Assembly: GCA_012520195.1 (NCBI GenBank)
Contig: JAAYOS010000131.1
Span: 1 to 37,655, forward strand
Length of the DNA: 37,655 nucleotides
Direction: 5' to 3'
Source: Clostridiales bacterium
GTDB lineage: Bacteria > Bacillota > Clostridia > Oscillospirales > JAAYOS01
In this document: positions 25,245 to 27,539 of the stretch, one piece after another
Layout: each line of letters opens with the position of its first letter
Position numbering within the stretch: position 1 is the stretch's first letter
Translations under genes and position numbers: made by a program
The notes under the pieces: model-generated
What the model was told of the DNA's origin: nothing
The model's database searches: none
The model's input: only the letters and a program-made list of their open reading frames with translations

Positions 25245-26780
25245 TTAGCAGAGGAAGAGACCATTAGGTGTAAGGCGATATACCTTTTCACACACCTCAG
25301 CCAAGTATTTGCGATCGTGTGACACACTTATAATTGCCCCACGGTATGCGATGAGTATTTGTCTTATAACTGGGTTCGACAGTGGGCTAAAATTACGTGT
25401 GGGCTCGTCGAGTATCAGTACATTACATTCCTTCAAAATCATGTCGATAAAGAACAGCTTTGCCTTTTGACCACCTGAAAGCTCTCCTATTCTACCAGTC
25501 ATCTCCTCATGGGTGTACTTCATGCTGCCCAAGAGAGTTCTAGCCTCGGTGATGCTTTCCTTTGAGCTGTCTGCTGCAAGAAGCTCAACCGGTGTTAAAT
25601 CTGCGTCTAGTACCTCATCATAGTTTTGAGGCATGTAGGCCACCTTGATGTCTGTTCTGTTCAAGAGTTCATCTGCAATCAGGCGAAGGAGGGTTGTCTT
25701 TCCGCTACCGTTATTTCCAACTATGCCGATGCTTTCGGGTCCAATTACCGAGAGCTTTATGTCTGAAGCAAGTAGGATATTCTCGTCACCTACTCTTAAG
25801 TGATCGAGCTCAAAGTCCAGAACACGTTTGGATGCTGGCAGAGATATATTATCGCCAAAGGAGACTAGAATAGCGTCCTCCGATTCGGGCATCTCAGTAA
25901 ATTGATCCTTCTCCCTATCAAAGCGCTTTTCCATGGATTTTAATGTATGGATCTTCTTTTTTAACAGTCGCCCACCGCTTGGGTCACCCCGAGAGATGGT
26001 GTTCTGTCTACTCTCTACCTTACTGTATATCTGCCTCCACCGCTCCATCTTTGCCTTATAGTCTGCTCTCTCGCTCCGTGCTATCTGCTCCTGACGAACA
26101 AAAGCATCACTCCTCGTCTGAATATAGGTCAGGTAGTCCGTCTTTTTTACGGTACTGCGTGGCACCGCCTTTTTACGCAGTTGCTCGAGATGGATAATCT
26201 TGTTTGCTGTGTTTTCGAGTAGGGTCTCGTCATGGGATATATACAGTAACGGCAGTTTGCAGTTCTGAATAAAGGATTCGATCCATGCTATAGTGTCTAA
26301 ATCTAAATCATTCGTGGGCTCATCTAGCAACAGAATATCCGGCGAACTCATCAGAATCCTCGCAAGTTGAAGCTTTACCTTTTCGCCACCGGACAGTGTG
26401 TTGACCCTTCTATCCTCATAGAATAGTCCGGGATCCAATCCCAGTTCTGAAAAAACCTTGGCATAGGTACTGTGAATGACTGAATCGTCATGAGAGTATT
26501 TAAGAAAATATTGGTAGACAGAAAGCTCTCTGTCATCGGCATTCAGTTCCTGCTCAAGATACCCGGTAATCGCATTATTCTTGATTATCTCACCCGACCA
26601 TGAGCAATAGTCTTCAATTAGTGCCGGATCATGGATCAGCTTAAGCAGAGTGCTTTTACCGTTTCCCTCTTCACCGATTATCGCAGCTTTATCGCCCTCA
26701 TTTACTGTAAATGAGAGACCCCTTATAAGCTCCCTGCCATCTCTATTCATCGTAATGCTTATGTTCTTAATATCTAGCAT
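25245..26780 (-). CDS. ABC-F family ATPase (ribosome-protection/translation type)
   Basis: This 511-residue soluble protein has two ABC domains and no membrane segment. Domain 1 has Walker A GEEGNGKS (36-43), signature LSGGEKVKLQLAR and LLLDEPTNDLD. A charged linker follows. Domain 2 has GNNGSGKT near 354-361, signature LSGGQKAKLFF and LILDEPTRNFSPLSN, an unusual D-loop. ABC-F proteins act on the ribosome; some protect it from antibiotics. I use ATG 26778-26780 with GGAG 8 nt upstream; an in-frame extension to 26909 runs through the terminator hairpin and is rejected. The long leader with an ORF pair and terminator suggests attenuation, as known for resistance ABC-F genes. The drug class cannot be assigned. 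Confidence 0.9.
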   Translation of the reverse strand: MLDIKNISITMNRDGRELIRGLSFTVNEGDKAAIIGEEGNGKSTLLKLIHDPALIEDYCSWSGEIIKNNAITGYLEQELNADDRELSVYQYFLKYSHDDSVIHSTYAKVFSELGLDPGLFYEDRRVNTLSGGEKVKLQLARILMSSPDILLLDEPTNDLDLDTIAWIESFIQNCKLPLLYISHDETLLENTANKIIHLEQLRKKAVPRSTVKKTDYLTYIQTRSDAFVRQEQIARSERADYKAKMERWRQIYSKVESRQNTISRGDPSGGRLLKKKIHTLKSMEKRFDREKDQFTEMPESEDAILVSFGDNISLPASKRVLDFELDHLRVGDENILLASDIKLSVIGPESIGIVGNNGSGKTTLLRLIADELLNRTDIKVAYMPQNYDEVLDADLTPVELLAADSSKESITEARTLLGSMKYTHEEMTGRIGELSGGQKAKLFFIDMILKECNVLILDEPTRNFSPLSNPVIRQILIAYRGAIISVSHDRKYLAEVCEKVYRLTPNGLFLC

Positions 26781-26848
26781 AATGTATACTCCTCTCAAGA
26801 TCTGATTCCGAGGTATATTTACTAGGCTCCTTCTAGAAATTTCCATCG

Positions 26849-26883
26849 AAAAAAATAATACGCCGCTGTTAATCAGCGACGTA
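26849..26883 (-). terminator. Intrinsic terminator/attenuator in the ABC-F leader
   Basis: On the minus strand TACGTCGCTG (26883-26874), loop ATTAA and CAGCGGCGTA form a 10-bp stem with one G-T pair, followed by TTATTTTTTT. It ends about 70 nt before the ABC-F start codon. Because it lies inside the leader, it should reduce expression unless its stem is disrupted. Confidence 0.8.
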
Positions 26884-27046
26884 CTGTTTCTAAAGGAGTA
26901 ATACTGCATGTAGACAGGCTGAATTCCGCAGCCATTGCATTAGCCCCCATTGCATCAGCTATTGTATAAGTTATTACATCAGCTAATGTGTCAGCCAATG
27001 CATCAGCCATAACATCAGCTATTACATCAGTCATTACATCAGTCAT
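26873..27046 (-). CDS. Candidate second leader ORF made of 12-bp repeats
   Basis: This is a 57-codon open frame with no recognised family. Its first half repeats a four-residue unit of the type [MIL]-[TA]-D-[VA], from the 12-bp DNA repeats; its second half (from about residue 35) is not repetitive. Its ATG shares the last A of the stop codon of the upstream leader ORF (TAATG), a typical coupling arrangement, and it has no Shine-Dalgarno site of its own. Its TGA lies at the end of the 5' arm of the terminator hairpin. A ribosome reaching the stop would cover that arm and favour read-through into the ABC-F gene. Translation is inferred, not shown. Confidence 0.4.
   Translation of the reverse strand: MTDVMTDVIADVMADALADTLADVITYTIADAMGANAMAAEFSLSTCSITPLETVRR
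26951..27046 (-). repeat. Degenerate 12-bp tandem repeat array (about 8 units)
   Basis: Read on the minus strand, eight units of the form ATGACTGATGTA / ATAGCTGATGTT follow each other without spacers, and further decayed units continue to about 26930. The first two units are identical. The period is a multiple of three, and only one of the three minus-strand frames is open through it. Confidence 0.85.
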
Positions 27047-27123
27047 TACATACAAATGCTAATAGAAACGGTATAGCGCTGACAAGACAGCTTCACATTT
27101 CTCAAACGCAGTGTGTCAATCAT
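27046..27123 (-). CDS. Candidate 25-residue leader peptide upstream of the ABC-F gene
   Basis: This short ORF begins MIDTLRLRN and ends SISICM, followed by TAA. AAAGGA (27135-27140) lies 11 nt before its ATG, and a strong promoter places the transcript start about 50 nt upstream. Seen in the sequence: ORF, ribosome site and order promoter-ORF-terminator-ABC-F. Known from other systems: drug-stalled leader peptides control several ABC-F and erm genes. The stalling motif, if any, is not recognised. The first codons lie within an inverted repeat (27065-27136), so initiation may be structure-dependent. Confidence 0.55.
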   Translation of the reverse strand: MIDTLRLRNVKLSCQRYTVSISICM

Positions 27124-27136
27124 CTTGTACCGTTTC
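27065..27136 (-). promoter_or_regulatory. Inverted repeat in the ABC-F leader RNA
   Basis: Arms GAAACGGTA (27065-27073 on the plus strand) and TACCGTTTC (27128-27136), plus CAAGA/TCTTG inside, give 14 bp with a one-sided 9-nt bulge (27074-27082). The structure encloses the leader ORF start and touches its Shine-Dalgarno site. The bulge contains TCAGCG on the RNA strand, complementary to CGCTGA in the terminator 5' arm (26873-26878), so a competing pairing is possible. Confidence 0.45.
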
Positions 27137-27154
27137 CTTTCCAAATCAAATGAT

Positions 27155-27190
27155 ATGTGTATATTGTACCATATGTGTTAATTGTACCAT
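27155..27190 (-). repeat. Two-copy 18-bp tandem duplication carrying the -10 element
   Basis: Two near-identical 18-bp units (27155-27172 and 27173-27190 on the plus strand; each ends in ATTGTACCAT) lie head to tail. On the minus strand each copy contains TGGTACAAT, an extended -10 element. Confidence 0.85.
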
Positions 27191-27209
27191 AGGTATTCTG
27201 AGTTTTCAA
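27181..27209 (-). promoter_or_regulatory. Strong sigma-A promoter of the ABC-F leader
   Basis: On the minus strand TTGAAA (27204-27209) is followed after 17 nt by TACAAT (27181-27186), with a TG one base upstream of the -10. Transcription would begin near 27174, giving a leader of about 395 nt before the ABC-F start. A second extended -10 lies 18 bp downstream in the duplicated unit. Confidence 0.75.
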
Positions 27210-27222
27210 TTAGAATCATTTG

Positions 27223-27246
27223 TGCATCAGTGCATCAGTGCATCGA
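27223..27246. repeat. 8-bp tandem repeat, three copies
   Basis: TGCATCAG occurs at 27223-27230 and 27231-27238, and a third copy with two changes (TGCATCGA) occurs at 27239-27246. It lies just upstream of the ABC-F promoter -35. Confidence 0.7.
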
Positions 27247-27467
27247 ATATGTCGTCCGCTAGATAATGTGTGAAAAATGCGCAAGAATCGAAGTAATGTG
27301 TTAACTATGAGGTGAAAAACAGCAGTTTTATGCGGAATATGCTATAGAATATGCGGTGTGCCACATATCACCTCTAGAAAATCCACACAAACCTCGGGAT
27401 TCTGCGCAAAATCCGTAATATTTGGTGAGGTACGAAAGTCTGTGGGTTAAGTAGGACACACCATGGC
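27247..27467. other. Gene-free spacer with an inverted repeat
   Basis: No credible ORF, tRNA or family match is seen here. The only structure is an inverted repeat of about 10 bp with one bulged base (27305-27315 and 27368-27377, core GAGGTGA/TCACCTC) enclosing about 52 nt, which contains the direct repeat GAATATGC. With the neighbouring arrays it forms part of a 440-bp gene-free, repeat-rich stretch between the short-chain dehydrogenase gene and the ABC-F leader. Confidence 0.5.
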
Positions 27468-27539
27468 AAAGCATTGATCTTAATCAAAGCGTTGATCTTA
27501 ATCAAAACGTTGATCTTAATCAAAGCATTGATCTTTATC
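27468..27539. repeat. 18-bp tandem repeat, four copies
   Basis: Four contiguous 18-bp units of the form AAAGCATTGATCTTAATC start at 27468, 27486, 27504 and 27522, each differing by one or two bases. Every unit junction gives the dyad TTGAT-N4-ATCAA, except that the last copy has TTTATC. The array begins about 28 nt after the stop of the short-chain dehydrogenase gene. There are no spacers, so it is not a CRISPR. Confidence 0.9.

Follow-up and report, generated by a model that had tools for sequence, protein, structure and literature searches.

How is an ABC-F gene controlled when its start codon is preceded by two overlapping leader reading frames and an intrinsic terminator, and does the second of those frames, built largely of a tandem repeat, have any part in that control? 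We examined this question in a 37,655-nt window from a Clostridiales bacterium (contig JAAYOS010000131.1, assembly GCA_012520195.1), to which all coordinates refer and in which all leader parts lie on the minus strand. Our analysis indicates that the leader (27174-26781) is probably a ribosome-mediated attenuator like those of VmlR and CplR, with a 12-bp array expanded in the loop between two of its pairing elements, B and C.

Architecture of the leader, its gene and its relatives

A sequence-only reading of this DNA had listed a promoter, a 25-codon leader with its own Shine-Dalgarno (SD) site, a TAATG-coupled 57-codon frame, a terminator holding that frame's stop codon in its 5' arm, and the ABC-F start, and we recovered every one of these parts in the same places (Table 1). 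The SD of ORF1 (AAAGGA) lies 11 nt 5' of its start, the ORF1 stop (27048-27046) shares the TAATG overlap with the ORF2 ATG (27046-27044), and the ORF2 TGA (26875-26873) falls within the 5' arm of a terminator with a 12-bp stem, a 5-nt loop and a following T7. Taken alone, the promoter consensus is no more frequent than chance would give (6 sites vs. 4.0 +/- 1.9 in shuffles); in L003, the genome with the closest ortholog, a promoter TTGATA-17-TAAAAT with TGT occupies the same place. No Rfam family matched the window.

Table 1 Features of the ABC-F leader, in window coordinates
Feature	Position	Strand	Remarks
Promoter TTGAAA-17-TACAAT, extended -10 (TGn)	27181-27209	-	Same layout upstream of the L003 gene
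Element A, GGAAACGGTAC	27127-27137	-	Overlaps leader SD region; 5' strand of anti-antiterminator; A:B duplex
Leader ORF1, MIDTLRLRNVKLSCQRYTVSISICM, 25 codons and stop	27046-27123	-	24-codon counterpart MISNVRRSDKSTFALDQRSIRFFR in L003
Element B, AGCGCTATACCGTTTCT, inside ORF1	27064-27080	-	Partner of A (anti-antiterminator) or C (antiterminator)
12-bp tandem array, about 8.6 copies, in B-C loop	26949-27051	-	Found by TRF
ORF2, 57 codons, through the array	26873-27046	-	Judged a by-product, not a functional part
Anti-SD element, TATTACTCCT	26894-26903	-	Predicted pairing with ABC-F SD in read-through RNA
Element C, AGAAACAGTACGTCGCT	26875-26891	-	5' arm of terminator and 3' strand of antiterminator
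Intrinsic terminator hairpin, then T-rich tract	26857-26885	-	C:D duplex -19.2 kcal/mol
ABC-F SD region, AGGAGTATA	26785-26793	-	Partner of the anti-SD element
ABC-F ATPase gene P0001, 511 codons	25245-26780	-	ATG at 26780

Two further features of the region were noted in passing. The extended -10 ATATGGTACAAT occurs twice because it lies in an 18-bp tandem repeat (27153-27191), and transcription might also start some 18 bp further downstream. Read in the 5' direction, the ABC-F frame also stays open across the terminator as far as an ATG at position 26909 that lacks an SD, a gain of 43 codons (26909-26781); in L003 the corresponding stretch is out of frame with the ABC-F gene.

The product of P0001 carries tandem ABC ATPase domains (PF00005 in two stretches), and its best solved relatives are ABC-F proteins, headed by VmlR2 (8buu, 1e-56). 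It falls below the NCBIfam cut-off for ribosomal protection-like ABC-F proteins (NF000355; 294.5 vs. 380 bits), and is therefore an ABC-F protein but not a confirmed member of that named resistance group. A role in resistance, through protection of the ribosome, is nevertheless likely, and the attenuator itself argues for one. Its second Walker B/D-loop reads DEPTRNFS where DEPTNxLD is usual, and DEPTRN[FLVI]S occurs in 62 of the 64 orthologs examined.

L003 belongs to another species of the same genus and was the sole close relative found (71% protein identity), with the gene order SDR / ABC-F / argS common to both loci (SDR upstream, argS downstream). Its leader begins with the same GAAAGGAA-CGG start and encodes a 24-codon ORF, and it keeps the promoter layout, the terminator, three alternative pairings and an anti-SD helix; the 12-bp array and ORF2 are absent, with B and C lying about 45 nt apart. 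The parts, their mutually exclusive predicted pairings, their presence in L003 and the absence of the array and ORF2 there can all be read from the two sequences themselves. In the two genomes ORF1 runs in different frames relative to the conserved CCGTTTCT; what has been kept is therefore the RNA element and not the C-terminal half of the peptide. This long leader form was seen in these two genomes only: no further relatives with it were found in 10 family genomes, 394 order genomes or a contig scan, where the next-best ABC-F match (about 55% identity) came with other leaders.

Shorter upstream reading frames are widespread among more distant orthologs. Among 37 orthologs with at least 50% identity (50-56%), 33 carry an SD-led uORF of 2-9 codons within 330 nt, compared with 8.4 on average and 18 at most when the upstream regions were shuffled, an excess suggesting that uORFs control the gene throughout the family, as in VmlR. 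The encoded peptides include MRK, MRF, MNK, MTK and MIIK; the 3-codon uORF of VmlR likewise has an MRK variant in other Bacilli (PMC9226507). The 24-25-codon leader is a departure from the 2-9-codon form, confined to the window's genus among the genomes examined. Minimal uORFs upstream of ABC-F genes in L004, L005, L032, L035, L075-L087 and others mostly precede one or more terminators, and would make up a widespread group of minimal-uORF attenuators among clostridial genomes. In L003, a two-codon ORF ATGGAATGA (ATG GAA TGA; complement 3211-3203) overlaps the leader start by ATGA and might, speculatively, be a trace of the minimal form.

Alternative pairings in the leader RNA

Folding of the leader RNA predicted three mutually exclusive pairings: A:B, an anti-antiterminator around ORF1; B:C, an antiterminator; and C:D, the terminator. 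Their duplex energies are -13.5 (A:B) and -12.3 kcal/mol (B:C) in the window, beside the terminator value in Table 1, and -15.8, -10.1 and -22.2 kcal/mol (A:B, B:C and C:D) in L003. With the ribosome absent, the predicted probability of A:B is 0.999 in the window and 0.976 in L003. We then modelled the ribosome as a blocked 31-nt footprint. Placed on the ORF1 start codon in the window, the footprint abolished A:B and gave P(B:C) = 0.35, with a leader-internal hairpin at 0.64; with the ribosome on codon 3 this competing hairpin reached 0.965, and over codons 3-8 P(B:C) stayed below 0.35 as other pairings competed. In L003, by comparison, P(B:C) was 1.0 with the ribosome on codons 1, 3, 5 and 7. 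As modelled, the antiterminator is thus less clear in the window than in L003.

Shuffled sequences attained the A/B/C triad of the window in 20 of 200 cases (7 of 200 without the array) and that of L003 in 155 of 200. Because the triad alone is only moderately improbable in the window and not significant in L003, it is the two-genome comparison that carries the case. The A:B helix is GAAACGGUA:UACCGUUUC in the window and GAAGCGGAU:AUCCGUUUC in L003, with two pairs changed on both sides and a further one changed to G-U. This covariation was read by hand, as the DNA alignment misplaced element B by several columns, and we therefore report no pair counts.

A further element is predicted to act on RNA that has passed the terminator. 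The conserved ACUCCU element (26903-26894) pairs with the ABC-F SD (26793-26785) around the terminator hairpin in the folded read-through RNA, with probabilities of about 0.95 in the CUCCU core in the window and about 1.0 in L003, and ATTACTCCT lies directly 5' of C in both genomes. The flanks of this helix differ and yet pair (GUAU:AUAC vs. GCAU:AUGC), with a compensating U-A to C-G change; shuffled segments matched the observed anti-SD:SD energy in 88 of 2000 cases (window) and 12 of 2000 (L003). In L003 the folded antiterminator reaches into the CCUA of the anti-SD element, an extension that would release the SD, in the way known from VmlR. A local hairpin over the SD, 3' of the terminator, was also considered and was no better than shuffles (z = -0.7), leaving the region upstream of the terminator as the SD partner.

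These pairings suggest how the switch may work. Transcription would start at the promoter and ORF1 would be translated; without drug, the ribosome would complete ORF1 and depart, A would pair with B, and C would be free for D, ending transcription near 26850. An antibiotic that held the ribosome on the first ORF1 codons would keep A covered, allow B:C to form and block the terminator, and the ABC-F gene would be transcribed. In RNA read through without a stall, pairing of ACUCCU with the ABC-F SD would provide a second brake, at translation. The array hairpin would hold B and C near each other from within the loop, and the 57-codon frame would be incidental. The sequence-only reading had called the leader a translational attenuator, of which the attenuator survives and the purely translational character does not: what we propose attenuates transcription and adds a second layer at translation. 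It had also pointed to known ABC-F and erm genes in which drug-stalled translation of the leader can prevent termination. Control by a ribosome stalled on ORF1 is indeed most likely, and drugs are probably the inducer; the three pairings A:B, B:C and C:D, on which the switch would turn, are new to the present account.

The array, the second frame and the leader peptide

The sequence-only reading had placed ORF2 at the centre of the switch, proposing that it is translated by coupling from ORF1, that a ribosome at its stop blocks the terminator, and that expression therefore reports on two linked ORFs. This rests on two real features, the TAATG overlap and a stop codon within the terminator arm; BmrB shows that read-through can require translation of a leader ORF across a terminator (PMC4191407), and two-leader systems are known. 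We nonetheless regard this proposal as very improbable. L003 lacks both ORF2 and the array while keeping everything else; ORF2 is made up largely of degenerate 12-bp repeats (TRF), has no SD of its own, and its protein matched no Pfam family. The consensus 12-bp unit has one open frame of three, the period being a multiple of three, and in simulated 12-bp arrays with the same number of changes the ORF2 frame stayed open in 89% of cases when changes were uniform and in 100% when they followed the observed spectrum. Translation of ORF2 would, moreover, antiterminate when translation is healthy, which would be the wrong polarity for a resistance factor. Because ORF2 is absent in L003 and such arrays are so often open, the frame and its terminator-arm stop are best read as by-products, most likely of repeat expansion within the antiterminator loop. 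The sequence-only reading knew of no described system with such a repeat-coded second ORF; two-leader systems as such have been reported for ermA, ermB and ermD (PMC8274638). The 12-bp array itself has no copies elsewhere in the genome. Selection could instead have acted on the array hairpin, for instance as a pause hairpin, or as a spacer tuned through its length, with basal expression set by the number of copies; we consider this reading unlikely. The 12-bp unit is nearly self-complementary, the array forms its own hairpin, and the whole leader folds strongly (z = -6.0); with the ribosome on the start codon, removing the array lowers P(B:C) in the window from 0.35 to 0.03; and VmlR has a pause hairpin, SL-2, at its antiterminator apex (PMC9226507). 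The observed fold also beats 99.1% of arrays with uniformly random changes (0.9% match it), but an equally good fold arose in 20% of the simulations that used the observed substitution spectrum, and we therefore rejected hairpin strength as evidence for selection. L003, besides, has no array and a cleaner switch, and three more unrelated tandem arrays in the same 590 bp speak for local repeat expansion, which we take as the simplest reading of the array. More doubtful still is the idea that the array is a variable-length tuning element, whose copy number would alter the antiterminator-loop hairpin or coupled translation and thereby determine both the basal level and the threshold of ABC-F induction, in a genus that has a 25-codon leader in place of a minimal uORF.

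A different question is where on ORF1 the ribosome would stall. ORF1 might be a macrolide sensor of the ErmDL type, arresting at Arg6-Leu7-Arg8 rather than at the start codon, which would be a variant of the preferred explanation with another inducer; its MIDTLRLR has RLR at residues 6-8, as does MTHSMRLR of ErmDL (PMC8298421). We judge this unlikely, since the L003 peptide (MISNVRRS) has no +X+ motif and a ribosome whose P site holds codon 7 leaves A uncovered. The residues before RLR matter as well: MDTLNRLR does not arrest, and erythromycin arrest tolerates only Ala or Gly at Ser4 of ErmDL (PMC8298421).

Within 590 bp (26949-27539) we found four tandem arrays unrelated to one another (12 bp x 8.6, 18 x 2.2, 8 x 2.9 and 18 x 4.1), the latter three at 27153-27191, 27222-27244 and 27467-27539. 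In 134 kb sampled from the same genome, short arrays were scattered with a top score of 68, compared with 118 and 89 in this region. The array-rich intergenic region is almost absent in L003, and resembles a repeat-expansion hot spot with no evident cause.

Relation to known attenuators

The VmlR leader (PMC9226507) and, in outline, that of CplR (PMC10201436) use the attenuation logic that we propose here. The vmlR leader of Bacillus subtilis has the set of parts predicted for ours, an SD-led 5' uORF in an anti-antiterminator, a rival antiterminator, an intrinsic terminator and an ABC-F SD sequestered in read-through RNA (PMC9226507); its uORF has 3 codons (MIN), whereas the leader ORF described here has 25 with B inside it, and a 12-bp array in the antiterminator loop. 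A minimal 3-codon uORF is typical of VmlR-type attenuators, but their mechanism does not depend on it. The cplR leader of Clostridioides difficile shares the predicted combination of transcription and translation attenuation with an anti-SD element (PMC10201436), but its uORF is MRI and its terminator stem itself hides the SD, a role given here to a separate element upstream of the terminator. With the bmrB leader of bmrCD in Bacillus subtilis the locus shares a long leader ORF and, as predicted here, three alternative stem-loops and ribosome-mediated transcription attenuation (PMC4191407); bmrB, however, has 53 codons and a terminator in its coding region, and its target is a transporter rather than an ABC-F protein. 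The ermD leader resembles ours in its Arg6-Leu7-Arg8 peptide (ErmDL) and a second ORF downstream (PMC8298421; PMC8274638), yet controls a methyltransferase gene, and neither RLR nor the second ORF is conserved in L003.

Were ORF2 or the repeat functional, resistance would be tuned here by a novel route; the evidence leans the other way. The case also illustrates how a tandem repeat with a unit length divisible by three yields convincing but meaningless open frames. Most likely, the locus is a further attenuator of the known VmlR/CplR kind with a curious repeat insertion. The drug-sensing attenuators would thereby gain an ABC-F lineage from clostridia, and two of its features lend themselves to testing: a leader ORF grown from the 2-9 codons usual in the family to 24-25, and a repeat in the antiterminator loop.
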